Source: Pelagibacteraceae bacterium AG-404-P08 (lineage in GTDB: Bacteria > Pseudomonadota > Alphaproteobacteria > HIMB59). Taken from it: a stretch of 64,000 nt of DNA. Location of the stretch: contig QCJF01000004.1 of assembly GCA_003216195.1 (NCBI GenBank), forward strand, positions 62,001 through 126,000. The letters run 5' to 3'. The number at the start of each line of letters is the position of its first letter. Positions within the stretch are counted from its first letter, which is position 1. Under the pieces are notes generated by a model, which saw only the letters and a list, made by a program, of their open reading frames with translations, searched no databases and was not told where the DNA came from. The position numbers were made by a program, and so were the translations under genes. Of this stretch, positions 21,930-44,705 are shown in pieces.

Positions 21930-22310
21930 TTATGATGAGTAGAACAAATCTGCGTTGATTATACTACCGTTTTGAATATCAATATTTTGATATCGAATAT
22001 TTCCCTTAATTTTTGCTGTTGACTTAATATAGATATCTTTAGCTTGAATGTCCCCGTCAACTTCACCCTCAATTGTAATAGTATCAGCAGTAATAGTTCC
22101 TTTAACATAAGAACCTGATTTTAAATTAATGGTTGATGACTTTATAGTGCCAGTCAAATGTCCAGAAAAATCTATATAGTCTGTGGACTCGAGAGAACCA
22201 TTTATTTTTATATCTTTCGCTAAAGTTGATTGATTGATAGTGCTCTCAGTGTCAAACATAAATTCAGTTTTTACTTCAGGTTTTTTTTCACTAGATCCAA
22301 ATAATGCCAT
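21930..22310 (-). CDS. Bactofilin (second of a pair)
   Basis: 126 aa polymer-forming cytoskeletal protein. The central bactofilin beta-helix (about 25-115) is visible as a run of short hydrophobic turns (IKINGSLESTDYIDFSG, GTIKSSTINLKSG, GTITADTITIEGEVDG). N- and C-terminal tails are short. It overlaps the first bactofilin by one base. Bactofilins localise envelope or stalk enzymes in other bacteria; no peptidase partner gene is adjacent here. Confidence 0.9.
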   Translation of the reverse strand: MALFGSSEKKPEVKTEFMFDTESTINQSTLAKDIKINGSLESTDYIDFSGHLTGTIKSSTINLKSGSYVKGTITADTITIEGEVDGDIQAKDIYIKSTAKIKGNIRYQNIDIQNGSIINADLFYSS

Positions 22311-23757: not shown

Positions 23758-24042
23758 GTGAATTCATTACTACTTTTCTTGGTAAGACTATTAGACTTTT
23801 ACACACTTATTGTGTTTTTTTATGTAGTCGTATCTTGGTTGTTTCACTTTAACATATTAAATAGTCAAAATATTTTTTTGTGGCGAGTTTTTGAAAGTTT
23901 TAAAAAACTTACTGACCCTCCCTTAAATTATATAAGAAGATATTTACCAAACTTAGGTGGCTTAGATATTTCACCAGTACTTTTAATACTAATAATATAC
24001 TTGCTTAAAGATTTACTGATTGAGTATTGGCCAAGAGGATAA
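23758..24042 (+). CDS. YggT-family membrane protein
   Basis: 94 aa with two membrane segments and the YggT pattern: an N-terminal hydrophobic helix with LDFYTLIVFFYVVVSWL, a central LTDPPLNYIRRYLPNLGGLDISP, and a second helix. The start is GTG at 23758. The family is linked to osmotic tolerance and to plastid CCB3-like membrane assembly, but the molecular role is unclear. It lies 19 bp before folD and is likely co-transcribed. Confidence 0.85.
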   Translation: MNSLLLFLVRLLDFYTLIVFFYVVVSWLFHFNILNSQNIFLWRVFESFKKLTDPPLNYIRRYLPNLGGLDISPVLLILIIYLLKDLLIEYWPRG

Positions 24043-24061
24043 TGATAAGGAGAATAAAAAA

Positions 24062-24970: not shown

Positions 24971-24972
24971 AA

Positions 24973-25317
24973 TTAAGTTTTTATTTTTCCTGAAATACTT
25001 GACCCAGGTGTTACGACATTTCCTTGCTCATCAACAATTACTGGACCGGAGACTGGATCAGTTACTCCCAATTCTGAACTAAGCTCCTCTAAAATATCTC
25101 TTATAGTGTCAAGATATGCGATCATTTGTTGGCGAGCATTGGCAAGACTATTTTCGTCAACCCACTCAACAACGCTGCAATAGGATCGCTCACCTGTTTT
25201 TATAACTTTGCGGGTAATAACTCCATCAGGATTTGAAAACTTCTTCATTGAGTCAATAAAGGATTGCTCATTACCAGGTTTAACTTTGAAACGCACGACA
25301 CTCAAAAATTTAGCCAT
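24973..25317 (-). CDS. Small ABM-like dimeric alpha/beta-barrel protein
   Basis: 114 aa. The first ~80 residues (MAKFLSVVRFKVKPGNEQSF, then SYCSVVEWVDENSL) fit the antibiotic-biosynthesis-monooxygenase / ferredoxin-like barrel pattern. The C-terminal ~35 residues are a Val/Gly/Pro-rich tail. No catalytic inference is safe. It is on the same strand as the secretion cluster, 48 bp after its last gene, and may be read through from it. Confidence 0.55.
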   Translation of the reverse strand: MAKFLSVVRFKVKPGNEQSFIDSMKKFSNPDGVITRKVIKTGERSYCSVVEWVDENSLANARQQMIAYLDTIRDILEELSSELGVTDPVSGPVIVDEQGNVVTPGSSISGKIKT

Positions 25318-25365
25318 AATTCATCCTATTAAAATTATCAAATGAAAACATCATAATTCTTAGAC

Positions 25366-27468
25366 TTAAAAACTTATTTCTCTTATTAGGGTCGCAGATA
25401 TTAAATTTAACATTTTATCAAAATAACTCTGTGGCTGAATACTTACATTTGCAACACCTAAAACTTTCTTATCGGAAAAGATTATATTTTCCGACAATTT
25501 AAGGATTGCTTTATAATAGGATCTCTCAGATTGTATTCCTCCGCCAGGTTTTTCTCTTGCAGCTATAGGGCCGTTAAAAATAGAGGTAACCGAAGGATAA
25601 AGACTAAAATCGTCTACTGGTGAATTGCTTATGGACACTACTTCTAAATCAATCCTTGGCATTTCAATTGAATTAGGAACAAAAAAACTATTTTTAAACT
25701 CTTTAACCTTTGAAATATCATTTTCAGATAAAAAAGCTATGACTTGAAATGACTCTTTATTTACAATTGACATAATTGGATCATCTTTATTTAGCCATTG
25801 ATTTTTTTTTAATTCAATTAAACTTACAATCTCTCCTTTAAATGGTGCAGTAATATTTAACGATGATTTAATTTTTTCTAAATTATTAATATTAGTTATG
25901 ATTTTTTTTTCTTCACTTTTCATTATCATTAAATCTGATTTATTTTGATCACCCTCTAAAGCATTGTTTATTTGAATTGAAATTAATTTTTTTTCTTCAA
26001 GAAGTTTTTGTATATCTGAATTAAGTGATGGCGAATTTAGTTTTATTAAGTCTGCTCCTAAATGTACAGATTGATTTTCTTTAATGTATATATCTGAAAC
26101 TTGTGAATTTATTGTTGGGTAAATTGTAATGTACTCTTCTGATTGATAAATTGCAGGAATGGACTGTGTATTTTTCCAAGGGTAGAATAAAATAAATGAT
26201 AAGGCTCCTAAAATTAAAATTGTTCTAATTACACGAATATTTAAAAAAAAACTAGAGCGAAGTTTCCACCATTCTCTTAACTCCTTTAAAATAGGTAATG
26301 CTATAAACCAAATAATTTCTACTACAAAAAGAAATATTCCTAAAATTTTGAATGCAAAAAAATAAACCAATAAAGCTATTCCGATAAATAAGAAGAACCT
26401 GTATATCCAAGTCGACCAGGCATAAATAGTAATTAAATTTTGGCGTTGTTGGCTCATATACTCAGGAGGGCTAAGACTCAATCCAAACAACCAATTTCGC
26501 AATTTCCATTTTGCAATAGCAAATGCTCGGGGCTGGAGGTTATCTATTTTTATAAAATCAGCAAATACGTAATATCCATCAAACCTCATGAATGGGCTGA
26601 TATTAATGAGAAGTGATGAAATCCATCCTGTTGTTGCAACGAAAAAAGCTGCACTTTTCAAAATTCCTGGATCAGATACTCCCCATACAAAAGTAGCCAG
26701 CAAGGCTAAATGTAGCTCTGTCGAGATTCCAGCAAAATTTATTGTCAGTCTTTTCTTATGATCTCTAAGTCTCCAAGCATTAGTATTATCAGTGTATAAA
26801 AAAGGAAAAAAGACTAAAAACGCAATTCCCATTGAATTGACATTACATCCAAAATTCTTAGCCGTGTAAGCATGGCCTAATTCATGAATTGCTTTTACAC
26901 CTACTAATGCAATTGCGTAAAAAATTAGTCCATTAAAATTGAAAAAATACAAAAAAGTATTTAAAAATTCATCCCAGCTTTGAATAACAAAATAAATTCC
27001 AATAATACCAAAAAAATAAATTATTGATCTAAAAAGTTTTTTTCCAAAAAGCTTAGCTATATTTATTGTTCTATCTAAAAAAGGATCTGGCTTAATCAAA
27101 GGTATTTTAAAAAAAAGATAATTATGAATTAAATTTAAAAACCAATGCTTTTTTTTAGCCTGATGTTGAGCTAGTAATAGTTTAACATCTTCTGAACTTG
27201 AGTGAGTTATTAAACTATTAACCTTTAAAAAATTTATAAAATCATCTAACTCCTCCTCCTCGATAGAAACCCCCTTAGCTTCTACTTTTTCAATAAACTG
27301 TTTTGAGTCTACTCCTGCAATCCAATGTCTCAGTATTCGAAAAGCATTTAAACCTAATGTAAAATATTTGTTTCTTAAATTATCATAAATCAGCCATGAT
27401 GGAGAACCGTCCTCCATAGGAGTTCCTGGTAAAAGTTGAAGGTCTTGTCTTATTGATGGAGTAATCAT
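25366..27468 (-). CDS. M50 (site-2-protease-like) metallopeptidase fused to a HlyD-type adaptor, with PqqD-like N-domain
   Basis: 700 aa in three parts. Residues ~1-90 have the winged-helix pattern of PqqD/RRE domains (PSWLIYDNLRNKYFTLG, then ILRHWIAGVDSKQFI). Residues ~130-420 are a polytopic M50 domain with the zinc motif HELGH (His195, Glu196, His199) and the third-ligand motif RFDGYY (Asp297). Residues ~430-650 are a periplasmic adaptor with paired biotinyl-lipoyl-like halves (VSDIYIKENQSVHLGADLIKL and ITAPFKGEIVSLIELKKNQWL) around a coiled coil. It starts one base before the stop of the GAF-adaptor gene is complete, so it is operonic. I infer an inner-membrane component of surface-protein export; whether it cleaves substrate is unknown. 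Confidence 0.75.
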   Translation of the reverse strand: MITPSIRQDLQLLPGTPMEDGSPSWLIYDNLRNKYFTLGLNAFRILRHWIAGVDSKQFIEKVEAKGVSIEEEELDDFINFLKVNSLITHSSSEDVKLLLAQHQAKKKHWFLNLIHNYLFFKIPLIKPDPFLDRTINIAKLFGKKLFRSIIYFFGIIGIYFVIQSWDEFLNTFLYFFNFNGLIFYAIALVGVKAIHELGHAYTAKNFGCNVNSMGIAFLVFFPFLYTDNTNAWRLRDHKKRLTINFAGISTELHLALLATFVWGVSDPGILKSAAFFVATTGWISSLLINISPFMRFDGYYVFADFIKIDNLQPRAFAIAKWKLRNWLFGLSLSPPEYMSQQRQNLITIYAWSTWIYRFFLFIGIALLVYFFAFKILGIFLFVVEIIWFIALPILKELREWWKLRSSFFLNIRVIRTILILGALSFILFYPWKNTQSIPAIYQSEEYITIYPTINSQVSDIYIKENQSVHLGADLIKLNSPSLNSDIQKLLEEKKLISIQINNALEGDQNKSDLMIMKSEEKKIITNINNLEKIKSSLNITAPFKGEIVSLIELKKNQWLNKDDPIMSIVNKESFQVIAFLSENDISKVKEFKNSFFVPNSIEMPRIDLEVVSISNSPVDDFSLYPSVTSIFNGPIAAREKPGGGIQSERSYYKAILKLSENIIFSDKKVLGVANVSIQPQSYFDKMLNLISATLIREISF

Positions 27469-28803
27469 TTAGATACCAAGTGTTTGTCGAACAAAAATAA
27501 TTGGTTTTCTAAATAAGTAAAAAAATAGTTTCACCTCTTCACCGAAAATTTTTGCAGTTCCTCTTAGTCCAATTCTTGGAGAGTTTTTAGCCGTAAGAAT
27601 TTCCGCTGTTACCCGGTAAGCTAGAGTGTTCTCACTAGTAAGTTCAGGCTCATAAGAAAATTTTGAAACCTTTGCAGGAATAACATTTAGTGGATCAGAG
27701 TCTAAAAAAACATTAATTTCTGCGTCTTTTTTGACTGTTATAGCATCTTTTACTGGCATCATTATCTCGACAACAACATTCGATGGGTCAGCAATAACCA
27801 TTATTGTCTCTCCTACCTTAAAAGGCTTGCCTATAAGAAGTGATTTATCCTTGATAACTGCAATTCCATCAGCAGGAGAATTGATCGTAGATTCATCTAA
27901 TAGATATTTCTGATAACTTAAGGTTTGTTCTACAAGTTTAATTTTACTCTGAAGTTGACTGACCATCGCTTTGTCCTCTTTACTTTGAAAAGAAGACTGT
28001 TTTGCCTGAAGTAATTCGGTTTCAATTACTTTTAATTCTTGGAAAGCTAAATCGTAATCATTTTGTAAATCTGTTTTTTCAAAAGATACTAATGTAGTTC
28101 CAATATCAACATCATCATTATTTTGAATAAAAACTTCTTGAATGACACCTTCAATAGGAGCATTAATAACATAGGGGTCTTTTGGGACAATTTCTGATTT
28201 ACCAACTGTCGATAGAGAAATTGGAATGAACATACTAGCAATAAGTCCTGCAATAATTAAAAATTGAAACCATGTATTTTTAAAAACTTTAATGGAACTT
28301 TCAAAAAAATTATTTTCTTTGAGTGATCCCATCGCGTGTCCAATAGATAAACTCAAATGTCTAATGTACTCTATGTCTTGCTCTTCCCAATTTTCATCTC
28401 TTGCAAGTATCAATGCTGCTTGAGGGCCTTTTTGATTTGAAAAACAAGGAACCCATAAAAGTTTATCAGGAATTGGATTTTCACCTTTAGCAGGAATTAA
28501 TGAGTCTTTTTCAATCGTAAATGGATGGGTATCAGGAGATCCTTCTTTTAATTTTTCTCTTATTATTTTCTGAGCTAATATAGTTGTCGAGGAAGTTTGT
28601 TCTACAACTGCTATGTCAGAAATAGCATCAATCTTAAATTTATTTGGATTTGTCCATTCTCCAAAAAAAGCGAATACAAAAGGGGTAATGTTCCTTAGTT
28701 CGTTTGTAACTGTATATCTGATTTCTACTAAAGATTTTGCTTCACGTAATTTTTTTTCAAACGTGAAAATCCTTGCTAATCGATTTAATTGGTCTTGGCT
28801 CAA
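27469..28803 (-). CDS. Membrane-fusion (HlyD-type) protein with cytosolic GAF-like domain
   Basis: 444 aa. The first ~175 residues are soluble and GAF-like (FTFEKKLREAKSLVEIRYTV, then KLLWVPCFSNQKGPQAALILA, IEYIRHLSLSIGHAMG). One membrane helix follows (about 183-200, WFQFLIIAGLIASMFI), then a periplasmic adaptor with lipoyl halves (INAPIEGVIQEVFIQNNDDV and INSPADGIAVIKDKS) around a coiled coil. The GAF-like part would put a sensory or docking module in the cytosol. It overlaps the preceding small adaptor gene by 4 bp. Confidence 0.75.
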   Translation of the reverse strand: MSQDQLNRLARIFTFEKKLREAKSLVEIRYTVTNELRNITPFVFAFFGEWTNPNKFKIDAISDIAVVEQTSSTTILAQKIIREKLKEGSPDTHPFTIEKDSLIPAKGENPIPDKLLWVPCFSNQKGPQAALILARDENWEEQDIEYIRHLSLSIGHAMGSLKENNFFESSIKVFKNTWFQFLIIAGLIASMFIPISLSTVGKSEIVPKDPYVINAPIEGVIQEVFIQNNDDVDIGTTLVSFEKTDLQNDYDLAFQELKVIETELLQAKQSSFQSKEDKAMVSQLQSKIKLVEQTLSYQKYLLDESTINSPADGIAVIKDKSLLIGKPFKVGETIMVIADPSNVVVEIMMPVKDAITVKKDAEINVFLDSDPLNVIPAKVSKFSYEPELTSENTLAYRVTAEILTAKNSPRIGLRGTAKIFGEEVKLFFYLFRKPIIFVRQTLGI

Positions 28804-29537
28804 AATACAACTCGCCCACTCATCCCAGGCAAAAGGGCAGAGCTAGCGTTTGTAATAGTACCTTTTAGTTGAATTGTTTGGCTTACAGCGTCAACATTTG
28901 CACCAATTCCACTAATTGAAGCATTGAATTCTTCTTGTATTTCATCAATATAAACAGTGATTGGATGGCCTATTGTCAGCCAAGAAACCCATTCACTAGA
29001 TACTACCATTTCTAATTCAAGAACATCAGTTTTTATAATCTTCATTAATTCTACCTGAGGTTGTATTGACTCGAATGCATTTACAACGACTTCTTCAACT
29101 GCGCCATCAAAAGGTGCTCTAATTTCACATCTTTTTACATTAAGTTCAGCAATACGCAATTCCGATTTTGCTTTCTCATACTCTGATATAGAAAGTTCAA
29201 GTTCATATTTTCCTATTGATCTCATTTGAAGCATCTGTTCATCACTTTTTAGTTTGATCAAGGCACTATTTTCATTAGCTCTAACTACATCTTTTTGTGC
29301 TTCATACAAACTACAATCAAATTGAATCAGCAAGTCTCCTTTTTGAAATCTTTCCATCTCTTTTACAGAAATTTTTTCAATACGTGCAGCTAATTCACTT
29401 GAAAGAATAGCTTCTTGAGAAGCTACTACCAAGGCTCTTGACTCTCTTACTTCAGCTTTAGAAAAAGAAGTAAATAGAAAAAATAAAATTGTTATTTTAA
29501 CCAGAAGCTTTAACAAGTTTATCTCCATAATTTTCAT
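28800..29537 (-). CDS. Small secreted HlyD/RND-type periplasmic adaptor
   Basis: 245 aa with a signal peptide (about 1-28, ending FTSFSKA). Lipoyl-like halves (ARIEKISVKEMERFQKGDLLI and CEIRAPFDGAVEEVVVNAFES) flank a short coiled coil. The beta-barrel with GHPITVYIDE and the C-terminal LLPGMSGRVVF are typical of CusB/MacA-like adaptors, but it is shorter. Its start lies 41 bp inside the end of the giant surface-protein gene; MEINLL three codons later is an alternative start. Confidence 0.8.
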   Translation of the reverse strand: MKIMEINLLKLLVKITILFFLFTSFSKAEVRESRALVVASQEAILSSELAARIEKISVKEMERFQKGDLLIQFDCSLYEAQKDVVRANENSALIKLKSDEQMLQMRSIGKYELELSISEYEKAKSELRIAELNVKRCEIRAPFDGAVEEVVVNAFESIQPQVELMKIIKTDVLELEMVVSSEWVSWLTIGHPITVYIDEIQEEFNASISGIGANVDAVSQTIQLKGTITNASSALLPGMSGRVVF

Positions 29538-32500
29538 GACCTTCGTATTGTGAGTCTAATTGCTCTTGAAGAGTTGCAAATTTTAAAAGTTTTTCATCTG
29601 CATCAAAATTTTGTGTATTTAAAACAATATTGTCCTGAGTAAGTGCATCAACTAATTGTTCAAAAATAATTGGTATGTCATTTAAACTCGATTGATCGTT
29701 TGTGTTTGGAGCTTGATTTTGATCATTATTTGAGTCATTGGGGTTAAGAGTATCATTGATAATTGTATCATCTCCTAGATTATTTTGGTTATCGAGTAAT
29801 ATTTGGCCTTTTTCATCAACAGTAACTTCAGTTTTTAAAGCTGCACTACGATCTATGAAAGGTTCAAGATTCCTTTTTAAAGTTTTATCTTGGCTAACAG
29901 AATTTCTATCCAAAGTAACATTTATTTCTCTTGTTGTATTATCATTGTCAATTGCAATCACCTTGACATCAATTGAGTAAATATCTTGAGGGAATTGAAC
30001 GATTGTCTGCCCAGTTGAAGGGTCAACACGTATCCAATTTGGAAGTGAAGAGCCGTCTTCCAAGGTTCCGGTATACTGTTTTACATTGGTTCTATAGTCA
30101 TCTCCAATAACAAATCCCAATAATGTATTTTCATTTATTCCAGTTCTTCCACTTTGGTCAATATTTAAATCTTCAACAGCAACATCAATGACTTTCATAC
30201 CTCCATTAAATGTATATTCCTTAACTAGTGAGCTTAAATTACTCCTTAAAGCTAAATCAGTTACTTGATTGCTTACTTTAGGTGTTTCAAAGGTCACTGT
30301 TTTATTAGCAATGGCAGACTCTAAAGTTTTTTTCTTTACAATAATTGGTTGGGCAGGAGCCTCTCCTGAGCCACTAGGCTTTCCAACTATAATTGTAAAT
30401 GTTTGTTGAGTTGATAGGTTACCTCCATCTGTTGCGGTTACCGTAAAAGTATAAGTGCCCTCAGTAAGACGGCCTCTGATCCTCCCTGCATCGTTAACAG
30501 TTAGACCAGCTGGTAAACCACCATAACTATAAGTTAGTGTTCCGTAAGTGCTACTGCTTGGATCTGGATCATCGAAAAAAAGTCTTGATTGAATGACAAT
30601 CCTATTATTTTCAGCACCTCTAAATGTAGGAGCTGATGTTGAAGTAGGGGCATCATTAATACCAGTTACTGTAACAGCTAATTGTGCTGTGTCAGTACTA
30701 GTTCCATTTGAAATTGTATATGTAAAATAATCTATTGCAGTTGTATCAGGAGTAAGAATGTTTGCTCCATCTTGGTCTGCAACATATGTATAAGTACCAT
30801 CAGAGTTAAGTGTTAGTGTACCATAAGTTCCAGTTAAGGCTGATCCCACAGTACCAGTGGTGCCAGTGCCCGCCTCAGCTCCTGTTCTAACATTAGAAAC
30901 TACAGCATCTGCAGTTTCGTCTGCATCAGTACCACCGTTTGTATCATTTGATAATAAACCAGAGCCTTTATTTCCAACACTTAAAGTATTTCCATCCGTC
31001 ACACTTCCTGCATCATTAGCGCCAACTACTTCATTATTTTGACCACTAACTGTAATGGTAATTGTTGCAGTATCAGATGCTGTTCCATCGGATACAGTAT
31101 AAGTAAAGACATCTGTCTCAGTCGAACCATCAGCTATATTATCAGCTGCAGCTTGATCAGCTGTATAAGTGTAAGATCCATCTGCGCCAACAGTTAATGT
31201 TCCATAAGTACCTACTATTTGAGTACCATTGCTCTCATAAGTTGAGCTTGAGGCAACAGTGCCTGTGTTGCCATTTGAGTGGGATATATTAGTTACTGTC
31301 AATGAAGAGGAATCGTCAGCGTCAGTATCATCATTCAATAAATCATCCTGAGCTGCAGTCTTAGTAACAGTTTCGTCCTCATTTACTGAGTCAGTGTCAT
31401 TTACTCCAACAGGATCGTCATTCACACCTGTTATCGTAATTGTAAGATTAGCTGTATCTGTTGTGTCACCATCATCAATTGTATAGACAAATACATCCGT
31501 TACCGTATCGCCCGCGTCTAATGCATCTGCTGTATCTTGATCAGCTACGTAAGTATAAGAACCGTCAGCTCCAATAGTTAAAGTTCCGTATGTTCCAGTG
31601 ACTGATGTGCCGCTACTATTATATGTACTTCCTGAGGAAACATTAGAGTCTGAACCATTTTCTTTTTTAATTTTAGTAACGGTAAAAGTGTCATCATCAT
31701 CTGCATCAGTATCGTCGTTCATTACATCATCTTGGGATCCCGTTTTAGTAACTGTTGCATCCTCATTAACGCTATCTGTATCGTTAACAGCTACCGGGGC
31801 GTCATTCACACCAGTAACAGTAATTGTCAATGTTGCTGTGTCAGTTGCAGTTCCATCAGAAACTGTATAGGTAAAGACGTCTGTTGCAGTATCACCTGCG
31901 TCTAAATCGTCAGCTGCACTTTGATCAGCGACATAAGTATAAGATCCATTTGAATTAAGAGTCAGTGTTCCATAAGTACCTGTTAAAGCTGATCCAACAG
32001 TACCAGTATTTCCCGTACTATCCTCCGCTCCGGTTCTAACAGCTGAAACTGTAAGAGATGCTGAGTCATCTGCATCTGTATCATCATTTAAAACATCATC
32101 CTGCGATGCAGTTTTAGAGACAGTTGCATCTTCATTAACACTATCTGTATCATTAACAGCTACTGGGGCGTCATTTACACCAGTAACAGTAATTGTCAAT
32201 GTTGCTGTTGCAGTTGCTGAATTTTCATCGGTTAGCGTATAAGTAAAAACATCAGTTGCAGGATCATTAGCATCCAAATCATCAGCTGCTGTTTGATCAG
32301 CTGTATAAGTGTAAGATCCATCGGCTCCGATTGTTAAGGTACCATATGTGCCAACTATTTGTGTTCCACTACTGCTATAAGTCGAACCCGAAGAAACAGT
32401 TCCAGAGTTACCATTCGTATGCGATATATTAGTAACCGTTAGCGAAGCATCTGTATCAGCATCTGTATCGTCATTTAATACATCGTCCTCAGATCCTGTT

Positions 32501-35500: not shown

Positions 35501-38500
35501 GCGGTAGCTGTAAGTGAGTTGTCAGTGGCTTCATATGTAAAGACATCGGTTTCTATATCTCCCGCGTCTAAAGCATCAGCTGCTGTTTGATCAGCTGTGT
35601 ATATATAAGATCCGTCAGCACCAATTTTTAAAGTACCGTAAGTTCCGGTAACTGTTGTGAAATTACTTAAATGTGTACTGCTTGATGTAACAGAAGTGTA
35701 TCCGCTATCAGTGCTATGTTTGATTTTCGACACACTTAAAGTTGCTGAGTCATCCGCATCTGTATCGTCATTTAATACATCATCTTGTGCTCCAGTTTTT
35801 GTCACTGAAGCGTCCTCGTTAACGGCATCAGTGTCATCGGTAGCAACAACAGGGTCGTTTATACCTGTGACAGTAATTGTTATATTTGCAGTATCTGATC
35901 CAGTATTACCGTCGGAGACTTCATAGACAAAAACATCTGTAACTACATCGCCTGCATCCAAGTCGTCGGCCGAACTTTGGTCTGCTGTATATATATAAGA
36001 TCCGTCAGCACCAATTTTTAAAGTACCGTAAGTTCCGGTAACTGTTGTAAAATTACTTAAATGTGTACTGCTTGATGTAACGTTAGAGAAATCTCCTCCG
36101 TTCTTTTTTATTTTTGAAACACTAAGAGTATCTCCTTCAGGATCAGTGTCATTTATAAGAACATCTCCTGTGACGCCAGTCGTTCCATCAGTAACTGTAA
36201 CTGAGTCATCTTCATCTACTGCATTAGTGTTATCGGTAGCAGTTGGGTCTTCATTATCTTTACCAATTAGTGTAATCGTCAGAGTTGCGGTATCTGTTGC
36301 GTCGTGTTCATCTGATAAAGTATAAGTAAAGGTGTCAGTTAGGTTAGAGCTACTAGCACTAAATCCTGATATGCTGTCTCTAGCAACATATTTATATGAA
36401 CCGTCTGATCCAATGGTAAGAGTACCATAAGTTCCTGTTACTGAAGTACCATTGCTGTCATAGGAGGTATTATTAGTAACAGATGAAGATGAACCACCAC
36501 TAGGTTGAATTGCTGAAATTCTTAATGTAGGAGATGCGTCAGGGTCACTGTCAACATGAGAGCTTGAACTGGTATTAATTATGTCACCTGAATGTTCTCC
36601 TGTTGCATTAAATGTGCTACCAGAGTCATTGGTTTCGTTGGCATTTGCCCCATTTGTAACTGTCAACGTTTCACCCTCATCAATCACACCCACATCATTC
36701 TGGGCACTCGGTGTATCATTCACACCGGTTACTGTAATTGTTAATGTCGCAGTGTCAGTATCTGTTCCATCCGACAATGTGTAAGTAAAGACATCATTTT
36801 CACTATCTCCAACATCTAAGGCATCAGCTGCTGTTTGATCAGCTGTGTATGTATAAGAACCATCTGCACCAATTGTTAAGGTACCGTAGGTACCAACTAT
36901 TTGTGTGCCACTACTATTATAAGTCGATCCCGAAGAAACAGATCCAGAGTTACCATTTGTATGCGCTATATTTGATACACTTAGGCTCGCACTATCATCT
37001 GGATCAGAGTCGTCGTTCATTACATCGTCTTGGGAATCTGTCTTTGTAACGGTAGCATCTTCCGCAACTGTATCTGTATCGTTAACAGCAACAGGGGCAT
37101 CATTAATACCTGTAACTGTAATAGTTAAGTTGGCAGTATCTGTTAGTGCACCGTCTGAAGCTGTGTAAACGAAAACATCCGTTACTTGATCACCCGCATC
37201 CAGATCATCTGCTGCATCTTGATCAGCGACGTAAGTATAAGAACCGTCAGCTCCAATAGTTAAAGTTCCGTATGTTCCAGTGACTGATGTGCCGCTACTA
37301 TTATATGTACTTCCTGAGGAAACATTTGAGTCAGTGCCGCTGTTATGATTAATTTTTGTTACAGTAATTGTATCTCCATCAGGGTCACTGTCATCGTTAA
37401 GCACATCGTTTTGGGATCCTGTTTTAGTAACCGTAGCATCCTCATTAACGCTATCTGTATCATCTACTGCATTGAGAACTGTGTTTCCTGCTTTTGTAAA
37501 TACTCTTATGATGTCACCATGCTGTGCACCATTATTAAATCCCACATAAAGTGTATTTGAGTCGGTATCAACACCAAACCAGTCACTTCTATGGCCTGAA
37601 GGTTTACTAGTATCTGTAACACTTGTGCTCCACGTCCACTTTAATTTCTCTGTACTCCATGCATTTTGGCCGCCACTACCGTGTTGGCTGACTGTATGAT
37701 AAGTCGCTCCACTTTTATCAACTCCCGAATATGCAATAATATTATTCATATTGAACCAAACACCTAGTATTTCATTATCAAAAACCACTGACCTCACATC
37801 ATTTCTTCCTGAGTTTTCTGTGGCATAAACATAATATGAATTCATAGGGGTTGATGAAGCATCAACAGTTGTAGTGCCTGATGTTATGTCAGGGCCTGAC
37901 GTTTGGACACCATTATTATTTTCTTCAAATCCATTGGATGTACTTGTGGTCTTGTAAAAAGTAAATGAGCCTGAGTTTATATTTTCTCTCTCTAAGGTAA
38001 TAACAAAGGGTTTGTTGCCATCATCGTGATTAGAGGCAGAGGCGGCAGTTCCTGCATCATTATTGCCAGCCAATAAATTTGTTCCCGTATTTTCTACAAA
38101 ACCATCCAATGATGTAATACCATTTTGAAGAAGAGAGTGTTTGTAATCAACAACACTAATTCCGTTAGTTTCAACGATACCGTATTTTTTTTCTAAATCC
38201 CAATCACCACCCTTACCAGTAATATCAACAGAGGCTGCGATATCTGCTTGAGTAATATTTCCAATTTGTTGTATCAGTAACTTTCCTTGATCTCCTTGTG
38301 CCAGGTTACAACCATAGAATAATAAGTCACCGTCTTGAGTTAAAGAGGTACCAATTGATTGAAGTGTGGTGCTAAAAGAATGTATCGTTTCCGAATTTAA
38401 TATTGAATTTCCAAGTACCACCTGACCAGTGCTTGCGTGTCCTATAATATGTACTGCATCGATGTCACTTTGATCTTGCAAAATGCTTTGCATTTTTTCA

Positions 38501-38802
38501 AAGCCGTTTTCATTTGAGTCAATTAAATAGATAGATTTTGTGTCATCGATGGAGTTAATGATTGTTTGAAAATCATCAACGCCCTTGTCTATAAAAACAA
38601 TTTCTTTTCTCGAGTCGTTATTATGTGTAATCGCTTTTAAATTATTTGAAAGATCGCTTTCGTTAAGAGAGTTATTTTGAATTTGGTCTTCAACAGCCTC
38701 AATAGCTTCACTAGCAGCATAAACAGCAGCACCATCAAACATGATCCTCGGTTCCAGCATTTGAATGCTAAAATGTGGATAAGTTTTCTGTTTATCAGCC
38801 AC
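29497..38802 (-). CDS. Giant repetitive surface protein (LEPR motif, DUF4347, VCBS/cadherin-like repeats)
   Basis: 3101 aa, start GTG at 38802 with AAGAGGAGAG upstream. The N-terminus has MLEPRIMFDGAAVYAA (about 15-30), a motif found at the start of many giant exported proteins; there is no Sec signal. DUF4347 follows (about 68-225: IIGHASTGQVVLG, DLLFYGCNLAQGDQG, GGDWDLE). From about 440 to 2715 there are about 15 VCBS/cadherin-like repeats (DTDSVNEDATVTKTGSQ ... YGTLTIGADGSYTY ... DTATLTITVTGVND). Repeat 6 is interrupted by five propeller-type units (about 1136-1398). An Ig-like domain (2717-2810) and a unique C-terminus follow. There are no RTX GGxGxD nonapeptides. It is a probable adhesin or surface-layer protein exported by the adjacent adaptors and the divergent TolC. 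Confidence 0.88.
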   Translation of the reverse strand: MADKQKTYPHFSIQMLEPRIMFDGAAVYAASEAIEAVEDQIQNNSLNESDLSNNLKAITHNNDSRKEIVFIDKGVDDFQTIINSIDDTKSIYLIDSNENGFEKMQSILQDQSDIDAVHIIGHASTGQVVLGNSILNSETIHSFSTTLQSIGTSLTQDGDLLFYGCNLAQGDQGKLLIQQIGNITQADIAASVDITGKGGDWDLEKKYGIVETNGISVVDYKHSLLQNGITSLDGFVENTGTNLLAGNNDAGTAASASNHDDGNKPFVITLERENINSGSFTFYKTTSTSNGFEENNNGVQTSGPDITSGTTTVDASSTPMNSYYVYATENSGRNDVRSVVFDNEILGVWFNMNNIIAYSGVDKSGATYHTVSQHGSGGQNAWSTEKLKWTWSTSVTDTSKPSGHRSDWFGVDTDSNTLYVGFNNGAQHGDIIRVFTKAGNTVLNAVDDTDSVNEDATVTKTGSQNDVLNDDSDPDGDTITVTKINHNSGTDSNVSSGSTYNSSGTSVTGTYGTLTIGADGSYTYVADQDAADDLDAGDQVTDVFVYTASDGALTDTANLTITVTGINDAPVAVNDTDTVAEDATVTKTDSQDDVMNDDSDPDDSASLSVSNIAHTNGNSGSVSSGSTYNSSGTQIVGTYGTLTIGADGSYTYTADQTAADALDVGDSENDVFTYTLSDGTDTDTATLTITVTGVNDTPSAQNDVGVIDEGETLTVTNGANANETNDSGSTFNATGEHSGDIINTSSSSHVDSDPDASPTLRISAIQPSGGSSSSVTNNTSYDSNGTSVTGTYGTLTIGSDGSYKYVARDSISGFSASSSNLTDTFTYTLSDEHDATDTATLTITLIGKDNEDPTATDNTNAVDEDDSVTVTDGTTGVTGDVLINDTDPEGDTLSVSKIKKNGGDFSNVTSSSTHLSNFTTVTGTYGTLKIGADGSYIYTADQSSADDLDAGDVVTDVFVYEVSDGNTGSDTANITITVTGINDPVVATDDTDAVNEDASVTKTGAQDDVLNDDTDADDSATLSVSKIKHSTDSGYTSVTSSSTHLSNFTTVTGTYGTLKIGADGSYIYTADQTAADALDAGDIETDVFTYEATDNSLTATATLTITVTGVNDAPVAQNDTGTINEDGTLTVINSSNDNTVTPASLDTGSPYATTDTTRSVAFNHDGTKMFVLHHSNSPDISVHTLTTAFDINTATQSSTTDISSHAGNPRGIRFNNDGTKLYISNGSGSNKKIHEFALSTAYDVSSLPTPTSTVISGQDGNPRGFTFNTDGTKMFLLGDINDAVYEYSLSTAFDSSTISYTSRSLDFSAKEATPRGISFNATGTKLFITGQENDEILEYDLSTGFNLSTATFNGAFDVSSYADNPTDIIFNNDGSKAFLARASSNGIQSFSLSSPYSFVDITGEYTGDVIDTTSSSNKDSDADASASLRVSAIQHSSAGSSTAVSNNTTYGASGTTAGTTVSGTYGQLTIGSDGSYKYVANDSDADALDAGDIVTDVFTYTLTDGTATDTATITITVIGINDTPTAQDDEGAITEDLTLTVTNGSNSNISGSLDTTGENSGDVLDTSSSSHKDSDLDTSASLSVKLIRKNLGTDSSVQPGSSYNSSGTSVTGTYGTLTIGADGSYSYAADQAAADAIAAGESQNDVFVYTITDGTQDNTANITIKVLGANDNPSAQNDVGVVNEGSTLTVQNSANANVDGSFDANGEHSGDVIHTTSSSHKDSDLDTNDTLRITQIKKSGGDNSNVSSGSSYNSSGTSVTGSYGTLTIGADGSYTYVASSDISGLSDGATVSDTFTYTLSDGTATTTADLVLTVIGGTASNQSPVAVNDTDSVNENASVTKTGAQNDVLNDDSDPDGDTIRVDQIQHSSAASGTSVSNNTTYGASGTTTGTTVTGTYGQLTIGSDGSYVYSANQTAAEALAAGVQADDVFTYRITDGSATATATLTITVTGVNDAPVAVDDTDSVNENETVTKTGSQNDVLNDDTDTDTSASLSVSNISHTNGNSGSVSSSSTYNSSGTQIVGTYGTLTIGADGSYTYTADQTAADALDAGDSENDVFTYTLSDGTATDTATLTITVSGKNDTPAGVDDTDSVNEDATVTKTGSEDDVLNDDTDADTDASLTVTNISHTNGNSGTVSSGSTYSSSGTQIVGTYGTLTIGADGSYTYTADQTAADDLDANDPATDVFTYTLTDENSATATATLTITVTGVNDAPVAVNDTDSVNEDATVSKTASQDDVLNDDTDADDSASLTVSAVRTGAEDSTGNTGTVGSALTGTYGTLTLNSNGSYTYVADQSAADDLDAGDTATDVFTYTVSDGTATDTATLTITVTGVNDAPVAVNDTDSVNEDATVTKTGSQDDVMNDDTDADDDDTFTVTKIKKENGSDSNVSSGSTYNSSGTSVTGTYGTLTIGADGSYTYVADQDTADALDAGDTVTDVFVYTIDDGDTTDTANLTITITGVNDDPVGVNDTDSVNEDETVTKTAAQDDLLNDDTDADDSSSLTVTNISHSNGNTGTVASSSTYESNGTQIVGTYGTLTVGADGSYTYTADQAAADNIADGSTETDVFTYTVSDGTASDTATITITVSGQNNEVVGANDAGSVTDGNTLSVGNKGSGLLSNDTNGGTDADETADAVVSNVRTGAEAGTGTTGTVGSALTGTYGTLTLNSDGTYTYVADQDGANILTPDTTAIDYFTYTISNGTSTDTAQLAVTVTGINDAPTSTSAPTFRGAENNRIVIQSRLFFDDPDPSSSTYGTLTYSYGGLPAGLTVNDAGRIRGRLTEGTYTFTVTATDGGNLSTQQTFTIIVGKPSGSGEAPAQPIIVKKKTLESAIANKTVTFETPKVSNQVTDLALRSNLSSLVKEYTFNGGMKVIDVAVEDLNIDQSGRTGINENTLLGFVIGDDYRTNVKQYTGTLEDGSSLPNWIRVDPSTGQTIVQFPQDIYSIDVKVIAIDNDNTTREINVTLDRNSVSQDKTLKRNLEPFIDRSAALKTEVTVDEKGQILLDNQNNLGDDTIINDTLNPNDSNNDQNQAPNTNDQSSLNDIPIIFEQLVDALTQDNIVLNTQNFDADEKLLKFATLQEQLDSQYEGHENYGDKLVKASG
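31547..31644. repeat. 98-bp perfect repeat inside the surface-protein gene, copy 1
   Basis: Identical at all 98 bases to 37229-37326, 5.7 kb away in the same gene. Other VCBS repeats are similar but not identical in DNA. Codon-level identity at this distance suggests recent duplication or gene conversion between repeats. Confidence 0.85.
34607..35395 (-). repeat. Beta-propeller-like block inserted in VCBS repeat 6
   Basis: About 263 residues with five copies of a roughly 48-residue unit: PRGIRFNNDGTKLYI, HEFALSTAYDVSS, PRGFTFNTDGTKMFLL, YEYSLSTAFDSSTI, and so on. The block separates the start of one cadherin-like repeat (NDTGTINEDGTLTV) from its second half (EYTGDVIDTTSSS). The pattern is that of propeller blades; five blades plus the flanks could close a propeller. 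Confidence 0.65.
35600..35691. repeat. 92-bp near-identical repeat inside the surface-protein gene, copy 1
   Basis: Matches 35990-36081 with a single mismatch over 92 bp, offset 390 bp. These are neighbouring VCBS repeats and look like a recent tandem duplication or conversion. Confidence 0.85.
35990..36081. repeat. 92-bp near-identical repeat, copy 2
   Basis: Partner of 35600-35691, one mismatch. Homology ends sharply on both sides. Confidence 0.85.
37229..37326. repeat. 98-bp perfect repeat, copy 2
   Basis: Partner of 31547-31644. It lies in the first VCBS repeat of the protein, whereas copy 1 is in a repeat near the end. Confidence 0.85.
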
Positions 38803-38846
38803 TTATTTTCTCTCCTCTTATCTCTCCAATCCAGAAATATACAATA

Positions 38847-38915
38847 AATTCAATGGATTTTCATTGAATTTGTAAAAATATATAAGAATTTCACAGTTGT
38901 TTTTTATCCACAACT
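38847..38915. promoter_or_regulatory. Two dyads in the divergent promoter of the surface protein and TolC genes
   Basis: AATTCAATG (38847-38855) / CATTGAATT (38862-38870) is a perfect 9-bp inverted repeat with a 6-bp spacer. AGTTGT (38895-38900) / ACAACT (38910-38915) is a second. Both lie in the 149-bp intergenic region separating the two opposing transcripts, so one factor could control both. No known regulator binding site is recognised. Confidence 0.55.
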
Positions 38916-38951
38916 ATGAGATTTTATCCTGTTATTTTTGACGGGGAAAGA

Positions 38952-41354
38952 ATGGCTAATTATAAGGTTTTTGTTGTATTAATTGCTTCAATTTTTATTT
39001 GGGGGTGTTCAAAGACACCTGTTCCAATTGTAAAAGAAGAGGTTCAACTTTCATCTCAAGAAGATTTAGAGTATCTGAAACAAACATCTGAAAATGCTCC
39101 CCTAGAAATTGATCTATATCAGGCAATTGCCATTGCAATAAAAAATAACCGTGATTTACGAATGAACCTAATGGACTCCGCATTAAGTCAGGGTCAAATA
39201 GATGTGATCAAGTTTGATATGTTACCAAAATTATCAGTTAATGCAGGTTATAAAGTTTTAAGAGACCACCCTGCATCAACGAGTGTTAATATGACTTCTG
39301 AAATTGAAGAAAATAAATCAGCAGAAATGATTGCTGAAGATCCAACATATACACTTTCACAATCAACACCTTCAAATACATACGACGTTGGTTTTACCTG
39401 GAATGCGTTAGACTTTGGTTTGTCTTATGTTAGGGCAGGACAACAGGCTAACAAATATTTGATCTCAAAAGAGTTGGAGCGTAAGGCTATTCATAATCTT
39501 ACAAAGGAAGTTATTTATGCTTATTGGAAGACTCTTTCTGCTGATGAATTATTAAGTCAAATAAACCCTTTAATGGATAGAGTTAATGCAGCATTAGATG
39601 ACTATGAGTACATTGAGGAACTTTTAATCAGTTCTCCTATGGATGCGTTATTATATCAAAAAGAATTACTTGATGTTTTACAAATTCTAAATACACAGCG
39701 TCGAGCTTTAATGGACTCACGTGCACAATTATCAAAACTAATGGGCCTCTTACCAGATCAGGAATACCTTTTAGTTAAAACAGAACAGCCTTTAACTGAA
39801 CTTAATATGTCACTAGAGGAACAAGAAGAGGCAGCGTTATTTTCGAGACCAGAGCTCCTAGAAGTTAGGTACAAGAAAAAAGTTACAGCGCAAGAAGCGA
39901 GGGCATCAATGCTTTCATTATTACCTTCACTTCAATTTAACGCCACATGGACTTATGACTCCAACAAATATTTATTAAATAGAGATAATGCAGAATATGG
40001 CGCTGTATTTGGGGCTAATTTATTGAATATTTTCCAAGCTAGTAATATCAATGATATAAACAACATCAATGAAAAGCTCATAGAAGAGCAAAGATTAGCT
40101 ATTTCAATGGCTGTCCTATCACAAGTTCACATCGCAAATATCAACTATGCTCAGAGTTTAAGAGAATACAGCAATGCTAAACATTATCTTAGTGTTGCAC
40201 AAAGAATTAACGAACTAATAGCAAATGCTCAAAAAATTTCACGATTTGGAGAGTTAGAAATAATAAGAGAAGAAGCAAGTTTACTTGTATCCCGTTTAAG
40301 GAATGACATAGCATATGCTGAATTACAATATAGTCTTGGTACTTTATATTCATCTGTAGGGATGAATTTTACTCCAGAAAATTTAGCTGAGATAAGTGAT
40401 AATGATCTAGCATTAGCTCTTAAAGAAAACTTAAATCGTTGGACAAAAAAATATAATTCATTTGTATCGATACCTTTAAACGAACAAAATCCTGTACTTA
40501 TTCAGTCAGCAAAAATATCTGAGGAAAACGTGAATTTATCTAATTATGATTTTGTGGATTTTATATTTAAATTTGATGAGAAAACATTTTATTTAGAGGG
40601 AAGTGGAAAGACTAGGTACAGTGTAAAAATGGCTAATGGAGATCCTTTACCATCATGGTTAGTATTTCTTCCTTCACAACATATGTTCGTTGGTAGTCCC
40701 CCATTTGCGGTAGGATCTTTAGATTTAACAATTGAAGCTAGTAATGATATTACAAATATTTCGGATACATTCACATTGAGTTGGAATACAAATGAGTTTT
40801 CGCCTAAAACCATTCCTGAAAAAGAAATTATAGAACCAGAAGTAATTAATGAAGATCTACTTAATGCTCTTAATGAAGCACTTGAAGCAAAACTTGAGAG
40901 TATTATCATTTTAGATGAAGAGGTTAATGAAGAACAATTAGACTCCCTCATTGCAGCTCTAAACTCTAATGAAAAACAAAATTTATTGGACTCAGCTGAT
41001 ATTATCTTCGACTCAAGTTTTAAATTAAAATCTAAGCCCAAACCGAACAAAAATGTATTAATTGCCGCCCTCAGTGATAGCCTCAAAAATCAAATTGACT
41101 CAATGACCTCTTATGACCCCAATCAATCAGCTTTTATTCAAATTGGTGCTTTTAAAAAAGAAAAAGTTTCTCTAGTTGTTGCAGACGATGTAGCCAAAAA
41201 AATTGGTACACGCGTTGAAGTGAGACCAACTTTAGTTTCTGACCCTGTAATGTATAGAATTTTAGTAGGGCCTGAGCATAAAGATCAAATTGTAAATGTA
41301 ATAGCTGATATTATGGAACTTGGAATATCAGACTATTTTTTAACCCAAGGATAA
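38952..41354 (+). CDS. TolC-family outer-membrane lipoprotein with CADG-like and SPOR domains
   Basis: Start taken at the ATG at 38952 (GGGGA upstream): this gives a lipoprotein-type leader with lipobox-like FIWGC (Cys19). An upstream ATG at 38916 lacks these features. Of 800 aa, about 50-500 form the two outer-membrane-efflux repeats (IDLYQAIAIAIKNNRDLRMN, LSYVRAGQQANKY, RPELLEVRYKKKVTAQEARAS). About 530-620 is a CADG/Ig-like domain (PLPSWLVFLPSQHMFVGSPP). An acidic linker leads to a C-terminal SPOR domain (about 725-800: FIQIGAFKKEKVSLVV, YRILVGPE). SPOR domains bind denuded peptidoglycan at division sites. Divergent from the surface-protein gene. Confidence 0.82.
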   Translation: MANYKVFVVLIASIFIWGCSKTPVPIVKEEVQLSSQEDLEYLKQTSENAPLEIDLYQAIAIAIKNNRDLRMNLMDSALSQGQIDVIKFDMLPKLSVNAGYKVLRDHPASTSVNMTSEIEENKSAEMIAEDPTYTLSQSTPSNTYDVGFTWNALDFGLSYVRAGQQANKYLISKELERKAIHNLTKEVIYAYWKTLSADELLSQINPLMDRVNAALDDYEYIEELLISSPMDALLYQKELLDVLQILNTQRRALMDSRAQLSKLMGLLPDQEYLLVKTEQPLTELNMSLEEQEEAALFSRPELLEVRYKKKVTAQEARASMLSLLPSLQFNATWTYDSNKYLLNRDNAEYGAVFGANLLNIFQASNINDINNINEKLIEEQRLAISMAVLSQVHIANINYAQSLREYSNAKHYLSVAQRINELIANAQKISRFGELEIIREEASLLVSRLRNDIAYAELQYSLGTLYSSVGMNFTPENLAEISDNDLALALKENLNRWTKKYNSFVSIPLNEQNPVLIQSAKISEENVNLSNYDFVDFIFKFDEKTFYLEGSGKTRYSVKMANGDPLPSWLVFLPSQHMFVGSPPFAVGSLDLTIEASNDITNISDTFTLSWNTNEFSPKTIPEKEIIEPEVINEDLLNALNEALEAKLESIIILDEEVNEEQLDSLIAALNSNEKQNLLDSADIIFDSSFKLKSKPKPNKNVLIAALSDSLKNQIDSMTSYDPNQSAFIQIGAFKKEKVSLVVADDVAKKIGTRVEVRPTLVSDPVMYRILVGPEHKDQIVNVIADIMELGISDYFLTQG

Positions 41355-41363
41355 ATTTAAAAT

Positions 41364-41750
41364 ATGGATGAGTCCAAAATAAAAGAAATATTTAGTTATC
41401 TTTTAAAGGATCATAACTTGGATAAATTTTTGGAATATTGCACTGAGGATATACAATTTATATTACATCCAAAACACGTTGCGGCTGGTCACTATGATAA
41501 AAAAGGCATTTATACTCTTTTTAGTCACCTGGCAAAATCTTTTCCTAATTGGAGTGAGACTATTGACGAAGTTTATCACGATAAAGAGAAAAAAGTGTTT
41601 ACCATCATCTCAAAAGGTAATTCTTCAACTATCACAGATATTTGGGATATACAAATTGCTCATTACAATGAATTAGGAAAAATATTTAAAGTTGAAGATC
41701 GTATAGATACCCTTCACCTTGCTGAAGGAAATGTAGGTCCTAGAATTTAA
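41364..41750 (+). CDS. SnoaL/NTF2-like protein
   Basis: 128 aa single-domain protein with the NTF2-like pattern: an N-terminal helix pair ([21 protein letters not shown]), then [30 protein letters not shown] and a beta-sheet. Function cannot be assigned. It follows the TolC gene by 9 bp and is probably co-transcribed. It overlaps the convergent argG by 11 bp. Confidence 0.7.
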
Positions 41751-42933
41751 TTTTATTTTTTTTTAGTCTTAATGCATTTAGTTTAATAAAACCCTCTGCA
41801 TCACGTTGATCATAATTAGAAGTTTCAAAAGTAGCTAAATCTTCATCATACAAGCTGTTAGGTGACTGTCTTCCAACAACAATCACATTGCCTTTATAAA
41901 GAGCGATTTTTACTTGGCCATTAACTCTTTTCTGGGTGGTATCAATTGCTTGTTGCATCATTACTCTTTCTGGAGCAAACCAAAAGCCATTATAAACTAA
42001 TCTTGCATATTTAGGCATAAGTTCGTCTTTTGCGTAAACTTCCTCTCTGTCAAGAGTAATACTTTCCATAGCACGGTGTGCTTTCAAAAGAATAGTTCCG
42101 CCCGGTGTTTCATAGACACCTCGCGATTTAATTCCTACATACCTATTTTCTACAATATCCACTCTTCCAATACCGTTAGATGCTCCTAATTTATTTAACT
42201 TTTCTAGCAAATTAAAAGGGGATAATTTTTTTCCGTTGATACCAATCGGGTCACCATTTTTAAATTGAATAGTTATCACTGTCTCTTTATTTGGAGCTGA
42301 CTGAGGGCTTTTTGAAATACCAAAAACATTTTCAGGTGGTCTTTTCCAAGGATCTTCAAGGATTTTTCCTTCTGCAGATCGATGAAGAACATTCGCATCC
42401 ACACTGTAAGGGGATTCATTTTTATTATGTTTCATAATAGGGATTTTATTTTTTGCTGCAAATTCCAACAGTTTTGTTCTAGATAATAAATCCCACTCTC
42501 TCCAAGGCGCAATTACTTTTATTTTAGGATCTAAGGCATAGTAAGAAAATTCAAATCTTACCTGATCATTTCCTTTACCTGTTGCTCCATGAGATACGGC
42601 ATTAGCTTTTTCTTTTTTTGCAATTTCAATTTGTCTCTTAGCAATTAACGGTCGAGCGATTGATGTACCTAGAAGATACTCACCCTCATAAATTGTATTA
42701 CAACGAAACATTGGAAAAACATAATCTCGAACAAATTCTTCTTTTAAATCTTCAATGAATATTTTCTTTGCGCCAAGTTTTTTTGCTTTGATTTTCGCAT
42801 CAGTTAACTCTGCGCCTTGACCAAGATCGGCTGCATAGGCAATAACATCTGCGTTATATTCAGTTTGTAGCCATTTCAGTATGACGCTTGTGTCTAATCC
42901 GCCTGAGTAGGCTAAAACAATTTTATTTTTCAT
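41740..42933 (-). CDS. argG: Argininosuccinate synthase
   Basis: 397 aa, normal length. ATP pyrophosphatase P-loop [15 protein letters not shown] at the N-terminus, substrate motifs [17 protein letters not shown], the [17 protein letters not shown] segment and the C-terminal [18 protein letters not shown]. It condenses citrulline and aspartate with ATP in arginine synthesis. The IalB-like gene lies 4 bp upstream on the same strand. Confidence 0.97.
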
Positions 42934-43414: not shown

Positions 43415-43493
43415 GCTGATTTAATGTCAGAGAATATACCAATTAAGATTGATTTTTAAAATAATAAATGGAAAGATATAAAGTGAGAGATTG

Positions 43494-44090
43494 ATGGTTA
43501 AAGTTAAAAATCCTTTTGTGGAAGCACTTCAGAAAATTGCTGAAAGACAAGATATTGGAAGTTTTAAGAAAATATTCGATTATTTTGGTCCGAGGTTAAA
43601 ATCTTTTTTGATGAAATCAGGCGCGGATGATGCAATTGCAGAGGAAATCATTCAAGAAACTATGACTATTATCTGGACCAAAGCTGATTATTATGACCCT
43701 TCTGTGGCTTCGCCGAGCACCTGGATTTATACTATCGCTCGTAACAAGAAAATTGATATTTTAAGAAAAACTAGAAAAGCAGTCTTGGAGGACATTGAGA
43801 CTGCCATTTTACCTCCTGTTGAGTCGAAAGCAGATGAAAATATTGAACATGACCAAAAATTTGAAATGGTGGCACAATATTTAGATGATCTTCCAAAAGA
43901 TCAACTGGATCTGCTAAAGATGAATTTCTTCGAAGAAAAATCACATGGTGAAATTGCTGAGATTACTAAAATTCCTTTAGGCACTGTAAAATCAAGAATT
44001 CGTCTGGCATTAGAGAAGATCCGCGGCAAATTGGAACAAGACGGCAGTATGTTTAATCTAAATAATGATGGCGGAAGTATGGTTAACTAG
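43494..44090 (+). CDS. ECF sigma factor (RpoE/SigK-like)
   Basis: 198 aa from the ATG at 43494 (a TTG one codon earlier is less likely). Region 2 is visible as IFDYFGPRLKSFLMKSGADD with EEIIQETM and WIYTIARNKKIDILRK. Region 4 is LPKDQLDLLKMNFFEEKSHGEIAEITKIPLGTVKSRIRLALEKIR (about 143-187). It is immediately followed by a ChrR-like anti-sigma gene with no gap. In relatives such pairs respond to singlet oxygen or membrane stress. No RpoE-type autoregulatory promoter is evident upstream. Confidence 0.9.
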   Translation: MVKVKNPFVEALQKIAERQDIGSFKKIFDYFGPRLKSFLMKSGADDAIAEEIIQETMTIIWTKADYYDPSVASPSTWIYTIARNKKIDILRKTRKAVLEDIETAILPPVESKADENIEHDQKFEMVAQYLDDLPKDQLDLLKMNFFEEKSHGEIAEITKIPLGTVKSRIRLALEKIRGKLEQDGSMFNLNNDGGSMVN

Positions 44091-44705
44091 ATGACATTCG
44101 AAATACTTAGTACACCTGTAAATTCACCTGCAAGTCTTATTTTCCAGCAATGTTTGGCCGAAGTTGACCCTGAGAATAGATCCCTTAACTCTGCGATGAA
44201 CGAGGTGGGTGGTTATTTTTTAGATAAGTCTGAGACCTCCCCTCTATCTAATGAATTATGGAATAAAGTTTTAGATCAAACAAAAAATAAAACATCTGCA
44301 CCTCAAATTAATGAGGAGCACGATCCTTTGTTAAGTCAATTGCCAGTTACCTTAAGATCCCATTTAAGAAATAAAAATATTAAGTGGAAATCTTTTAAAG
44401 ATGTTAAGGTTGCTTCTATACTTCCCAAAGACAATAACGAAAAACTAGAACTCATCCACGTAATGCCCGGTGCAAAAATTCCTCAACACACACATGAAGG
44501 AAATGAAAGTTTTTTAGTTTTACATGGATCTTATAGTGATGAGTACGGTAATTATAAGCAAGGATCTGTTCAAGTAAGAAGTGATGATCATAATCACACA
44601 CCTGTTGGTGATGCTAAAACTGGCTGTATCGGATTAGCATACACTCACGGTAGAATTAAATTCTCCGGTAAATTCGGTAAGTTACTGAATTTAATCGCTA
44701 ATTAA
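44091..44705 (+). CDS. ChrR-like anti-sigma factor with cupin domain, no zinc motif in the N-domain
   Basis: 204 aa. The C-terminal half is a cupin with metal ligands (MPGAKIPQHTHEGNESFLVLHGSYSD, DDHNHTPVG, then GCIGLAYTHGRI), as in ChrR. The N-terminal anti-sigma helices contain VGGYFLDKSETSPLS but lack the His/Cys zinc-binding HxxxCxxC that defines the ChrR anti-sigma domain; only an isolated Cys near 22 remains. It may inhibit the sigma factor by a zinc-independent fold. It starts on the base after the sigma stop. Confidence 0.8.
   Translation: MTFEILSTPVNSPASLIFQQCLAEVDPENRSLNSAMNEVGGYFLDKSETSPLSNELWNKVLDQTKNKTSAPQINEEHDPLLSQLPVTLRSHLRNKNIKWKSFKDVKVASILPKDNNEKLELIHVMPGAKIPQHTHEGNESFLVLHGSYSDEYGNYKQGSVQVRSDDHNHTPVGDAKTGCIGLAYTHGRIKFSGKFGKLLNLIAN

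Follow-up and report, generated by a model that had tools for sequence, protein, structure and literature searches.

Introduction

The ducts of LapE-type type I secretion systems belong with the TolC-family outer membrane factors, and the termini of TolC lie on the periplasmic side. Giant adhesins are exported by type I secretion of the LapA/BapA type (accessible part of PMC12153261). In E. coli, the equator of TolC has been proposed to touch the peptidoglycan (PMC13082787), and the lipoprotein YbjP, a protein of its own, is a binding partner of the channel (PMC13082787; the complex also in PMC13095208). For E. coli TolC, it is still under study how a tripartite duct is seated in the peptidoglycan layer (PMC13082787). 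Denuded glycan at the septum is the ligand of the known SPOR domains, and in 2019 all SPOR proteins were said to act in division or morphogenesis (accessible part of PMC6895207).

The order HIMB59 (AEGEAN-169) is a streamlined ocean lineage; words for secretion or adhesins do not occur in PMC10308909. Here, a TolC-family protein with two additional C-terminal modules was analysed in the window, which is the whole stretch of 64,000 nucleotides of HIMB59 DNA under study. No description of a TolC-CADG-SPOR architecture or of an M50-HlyD adhesin system was found in the open-access papers searched. The component families are known; none of the papers searched describes how they are combined in one protein, the repeated occurrence of this combination, or its link with an adhesin cassette in which no ABC gene was seen.

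Organization of the adhesin cassette

The cassette was located between folD and argG (24020–42933), with tolC oriented divergently to the surface-protein gene and argG on the far side of tolC (Table 1). Met13 (at 38952) of the TolC open reading frame is likely the true start, as it was nearly invariant in alignment A2, which contained 13 members of the HIMB59 group. In the M50-HlyD fusion, residues His194, Glu195, and His198 were invariant in 15 of 15 sequences. No ABC exporter was seen within the listed cassettes of the window and its relatives. In an 82%-complete genome, one ABC_membrane protein scored over the cut-off and one under it; the former was judged to be MsbA-like by sight and by a ubiA-like neighbour. 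The conserved C-terminal tail of the surface proteins is a candidate export signal.

Table 1. Features of the TolC-family gene and the neighbouring adhesin cassette in the window.
Feature	Residues	Position	Strand	Evidence
TolC-family outer membrane factor with CADG and SPOR tail	812 aa	38916..41354	+	ORF
Signal peptide and probable lipobox, Cys31		38952..39008	+	Cys31 conservation; Pfam LPAM_1
OEP/TolC channel region	~62–508	39099..40439	+	Pfam OEP; VIA-align
CADG (He_PIG) beta-sandwich module	~513–627	40452..40796	+	Pfam; dystroglycan fold match
Linker, low-confidence helices	~628–737	40797..41126	+	AlphaFold2 model
SPOR domain	738–812	41127..41351	+	Pfam; alignment; fold match
Giant surface protein, DUF4347 and VCBS/cadherin-like repeats, presumed cargo	3101 aa	29497..38802	-	ORF; domain searches
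He_PIG module of surface protein	2744–2806	30385..30573	-	Pfam, 43 bits
CADG-like module of surface protein with SLPNWIRVDPSTGQ	~2869–2965	29908..30198	-	TolC-CADG profile; hhalign
Conserved surface-protein C-terminal tail (F.xL..QL..YG.xL)		29500..29580	-	Alignment A7
RND/HlyD-type periplasmic adaptor		28800..29537	-	TIGR01730, 110.1 bits, over cut-off
Second HlyD-type adaptor, N-terminal extension		27469..28803	-	Pfam HlyD_3, HlyD_D23
Peptidase M50-HlyD fusion, inner-membrane component		25366..27468	-	Pfam; alignment

A small SnoaL-like open reading frame (41364–41750) started 10 bases past tolC and was shorter at locus L034. It was considered as a YbjP-like partner of the duct and dropped, because no signal peptide was seen and no match was present at the loci of several relatives. 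An ECF sigma factor followed by a ChrR-like cupin (43491–44705) lay near the cassette, as also at relatives' loci, and two adjacent bactofilin-like open reading frames (21930–22783) were recognized by sight.

Distribution and co-occurrence of the cassette

When 100 genomes of the order HIMB59 were compared, TolC and M50-HlyD occurred together in 30, TolC only in 4, M50-HlyD only in 2, and neither in 64, the match lists being compared by hand. TolC was matched in 36 genomes, including two with short remnants that are counted among the 64, and M50-HlyD in 32. The cassette was present or absent as a block. In two genomes (G029 and G015) argG adjoined folD with scraps of TolC remaining, and in another (G039) TolC and the surface protein were broken while M50-HlyD was intact. 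TolC was carried by 3 of 48 genomes of the kinship family f2, which is probably GCA-002718135.

M50-HlyD was found in 24 of 386 sampled genomes of the class. A search of genome contigs gave 594 confirmed loci, the best 80 of which included SAR11, Marinobacterium, Colwellia, Azospirillum, Nitrospira, Pectobacterium, and others; among these 80, M50-HlyD and the two adaptors were conserved from SAR11 to Nitrospira. Many loci among the matches listed had the surface protein, TolC, the two adaptors and M50-HlyD in that order, and TolC formed one cluster with the surface protein, with the adaptors and M50-HlyD, or with all of these in HIMB59, SAR11, MOX_bin7, Azospirillum, and others. Also among the matches listed was an M50-HlyD 96% identical to the window copy, from the single-cell genome AG-891-G06, which is named as HIMB59-1.B in the accessible part of PMC10734472.

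The OEP family includes efflux channels, and an ordinary drug-efflux TolC might merely adjoin the adhesin gene. This TolC is closely tied to M50-HlyD and the adhesin, both by co-occurrence and by gene linkage, and the genes are lost as a unit, which makes such an arrangement very improbable.

Channel region of the TolC-family protein

The TolC of the window matched Pfam OEP in two stretches over the cut-off (74.7 bits; residues 68–277, E 1.1e-20). Its AlphaFold2 model (32 sequences, mean pLDDT 70) was aligned with TolC-family structures at VIA-align Z values of up to 22. Together, these two results place the protein in the TolC/OMF family. A Foldseek search with the model returned 44 chains at E ≤ 0.001; judged by title, these were channels of the TolC family. 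The score for TIGR01844, the TolC of type I secretion, was 20.5 bits, far under the cut-off of 225 bits. Cys31 was invariant in 13 of 13 relatives, whereas the Pfam lipoprotein site LPAM_1 was found in only 2 of the 13; the duct is a putative outer-membrane lipoprotein. OEP, He_PIG, and SPOR were each matched by all 13 members of A2 at E ≤ 0.1.

CADG module of the TolC tail

The sequence-only reading had described the stretch 40500–41354, which corresponds to residues 529–812, as a TolC lipoprotein tail with a CADG-like module and a SPOR domain. Both modules were confirmed. Pfam He_PIG was matched at residues 548–623 with 26.5 bits, over the cut-off of 24, and a beta-sandwich was predicted by AlphaFold2 at residues 549–624. 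The cut-off was missed by 6 of 10 TolC relatives scanned singly and passed by 4 of 9 SPOR-bearing ones. When residues 513–627 of the model were compared with dystroglycan domains, Z values of 10.6, 10.1, and 9.5 were obtained by VIA-align, the best being with 8yt8_O (r.m.s.d. 2.7 over 97). A profile of 17 TolC CADG modules gave weak sequence matches to dystroglycan and SraP (E 0.003–0.05), intermixed with rows of ribosomal proteins, one of which was topmost.

SPOR domain and its putative glycan-contact residues

The SPOR domain of the window scored 17.5 bits (residues 738–808, E 0.0053), under the Pfam cut-off of 21, whereas all nine SPOR-bearing relatives scanned singly passed it with 21.6–25.1 bits. 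A beta-alpha-beta-beta-alpha-beta fold was predicted by AlphaFold2 at residues 739–811. This part was well matched to the SPOR domain of RlpA (6i09/6i05) with a VIA-align Z of 11.6 (r.m.s.d. 1.8 over 75), and to CwlC with a Z of 8.4. Likewise, the first Foldseek match after the 44 TolC-type chains was RlpA SPOR in complex with denuded glycan (TMt 0.81, E 4.5e-3).

In RlpA, the denuded glycan is touched by residues Gln270, Arg302, Arg309, and Arg311, with Phe274 at one edge (accessible part of PMC6895207). The corresponding residues of the window protein were Gln742, Val774, Arg781, and Leu783, with Phe746 at the position of Phe274. Two of the four contact side chains, Gln742 and Arg781, were therefore retained in a near-gapless alignment.

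The sub-threshold score, the partial loss of the basic patch and the absence of SPOR from family f2 would fit a fold that has decayed or been repurposed, does not bind glycan and is kept for structural reasons. However, the SPOR tail was better conserved than the linker, with the motifs QIGAF and YRILVGP kept, and SPOR tails recurred in unrelated branches, so that this explanation is considered unlikely. A wall tether by the SPOR tail, which would bind peptidoglycan, is likely.

Proposed septal display

The earlier proposal that the SPOR domain tethers the pore to septal peptidoglycan was upheld in part: the domain is of the right kind for a wall tether, but the septal part was not supported. 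Targeting to the septum needs the contact residues, a septal amidase and other SPOR proteins, whereas the duct could be tethered to the wall without any of them. Amidase_3 is the classic septal amidase family. It was over the cut-off in 0 of 100 genomes of the order HIMB59, and all 10 genomes tested for Amidase_2 had such a protein. When 37 genomes of genus g1 were searched with Pfam SPOR, 16 gave a match, each in its TolC, and 21 gave none; a second SPOR protein was found in one genome only (G024), by a search of limited sensitivity that misses the window copy itself.

The retention of Gln742, Phe746, and Arg781, the presence of Amidase_2, and the septal glycan binding and service in division or morphogenesis of known SPOR domains are in favour of septal targeting of the duct by its tail, with adhesin display at the septum or poles as the consequence. 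Against it stand the loss of two of the three basic-patch arginines, the missing Amidase_3, and the near absence of other SPOR proteins from the genus. Septal targeting by the tail is thus weakened on sequence grounds, and septal or polar display is regarded as rather improbable.

CADG modules common to TolC and the adhesin

The TolC-CADG profile matched the adhesin of the window at residues 2909–2957 with 23.5 bits, spanning the stretch (~2919–2938) whose resemblance to the TolC module had been pointed out in the sequence-only reading. The same profile matched C-terminal modules of many adhesins and gave no matches in reversed-ORF decoys of the fetched loci. When the TolC and adhesin CADG sets (A8 and A9) were compared by hhalign, an E value of 4.7e-16 was obtained. 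At the SLPNWIR module of the adhesin, the window copy gave no Pfam He_PIG match, and RibLong was matched at E 0.045. The model of the adhesin C-terminus was poor (mean pLDDT 45.9), and its Foldseek matches were mostly generic cadherin strings with TM values of 0.11–0.15 to the query. An adhesin fragment of genome G501 (L205 8083–12348) contained five tandem CADG repeats, which were repeatedly matched by the window TolC itself.

A tree of CADG domains was calculated from 56 of 60 picked modules over 86 columns, with some long branches. The 17 TolC modules formed one clade (98/98), with the G501 tandem repeats nearest, and the C-terminal adhesin modules of HIMB59, SAR11, and Marinobacterium formed a separate clade (100/99). 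Because the TolC modules form a clade of their own, the resemblance between TolC and adhesin is one at superfamily level. The suggestion of a shared domain therefore held for the CADG superfamily, common to TolC and its cognate adhesin, but not for specific docking, and docking through a recently copied shared domain was rejected as the default.

The TolC module might still recruit or retain the cognate adhesin by docking on its CADG-like modules. Homologous modules in both partners are in line with this, and so are the G501 repeats, which are matched by the window TolC and closest to the TolC clade in the tree. Since the TolC modules form a single clade across bacteria, with no genome-by-genome pairing with adhesins, and many systems have no CADG on TolC, docking appears improbable.

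Variable tails of the TolC proteins

A TolC tree was calculated from 79 rows (78 different), leaving out L171, L189, L202, and short pieces. The tail labels were taken from Pfam, with some rows labelled by sight and the SPOR of L164 by likeness to L140. SPOR was labelled in 16 of the 79 rows, which needed at least 6 changes; CADG, in 23 rows, needed 3 changes, of which the starred branches force 1. Over-cut-off Pfam SPOR matches were found at loci L087, L140, L188, and L192, with G238, Azospirillum lipoferum, MOX_bin7, and an Amphritea MAG as carriers.

In SAR11, the SPOR-like tails of L176–L181 were recognized from one weak hhalign match (E 0.0012, probability 19) and by sight, and the two of them scanned with Pfam SPOR gave no match; without these six, the SPOR label applies to 10 of 79 rows. 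SPOR was absent from 6 of the 12 SAR11 tails read. In one SAR11 branch (L183 403–2934; L187 1489–3957), a long charged coiled-coil-like tail replaced SPOR after the CADG module. The TolC of a Colwellia MAG (L197) gave a sub-threshold LysM match (17.8, cut-off 20.9), and that of Amphritea sp. 1_MG-2023 (L144 1354–3261) ended in an NTF2-like Cds6_C domain (51.9 bits). SPOR, He_PIG, and LysM were matched in 0 of the 48 A3 TolCs, a set picked for the absence of a visible extra domain.

SPOR tails have been gained or lost repeatedly in the TolCs of the adhesin system, as read from these sequences. Since SPOR is lacking in family f2, in half of the SAR11 tails read and in all A3 TolCs, the system does not depend on a wall tether.

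Proposed model and comparison with known systems

The duct carries a CADG module and a wall-binding module on its tail, and therefore one protein probably clips it to both the outer membrane and the cell wall. The favoured reading, held with fair though not high confidence, is a wall-clipped outer-membrane lipoprotein duct dedicated to giant-adhesin export. The tolC product would be the outer-membrane exit duct of an exporter serving the neighbouring adhesin. Its C-terminus would leave the channel on the periplasmic side and form the CADG module beside it, three per trimer, as a possible collar around the duct. After a linker of ~110 residues, the terminal SPOR domain would grip the peptidoglycan. 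The lipid on Cys31 above and the wall grip below would keep the duct upright, and this anchorage may bear the load of a surface-displayed protein of 3,100 residues.

More tentatively, and with less than even confidence, the cassette may represent a widespread, undescribed giant-adhesin exporter in which the M50/HlyD fusion and two HlyD adaptors replace the ABC transporter and TolC has repeatedly been welded to the wall by SPOR, LysM-like, or other tails. Streamlined ocean bacteria (HIMB59 and SAR11) retain this costly cassette for a giant surface protein. Since ducts with built-in wall-binding domains have close relatives without them, the seating of ducts in the peptidoglycan becomes testable by domain deletion. 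A SPOR domain on an export duct would also widen the roles of SPOR beyond division and morphogenesis, as these are given in the accessible part of PMC6895207.

When compared with LapA/BapA-type type I secretion, the cassette was similar in that a giant repetitive adhesin adjoins adaptor and TolC genes, but no ABC transporter was seen in it, and an M50-protease/HlyD fusion with two further adaptors is found instead (accessible part of PMC12153261). The OEP channel fold is the same as in the TolC-family factors TolC and OprM (Z up to 22); unlike these, the window protein carries ~300 extra residues comprising CADG, linker, and SPOR. RlpA is likewise built with a C-terminal SPOR domain (Z 11.6) and has an outer-membrane lipid anchor, which the window protein probably has too, but RlpA acts in cell separation as a lytic transglycosylase (accessible part of PMC6895207), whereas the window protein is presumably an export duct. 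In the E. coli TolC-YbjP complex, a lipidated extra domain lies beside the channel near the equator, an arrangement that the window protein would share. YbjP is not part of the TolC chain, differs in fold and is described as not avid for peptidoglycan (PMC13082787), whereas in the window TolC the extra domains are fused to the duct, and one of them is a SPOR domain.
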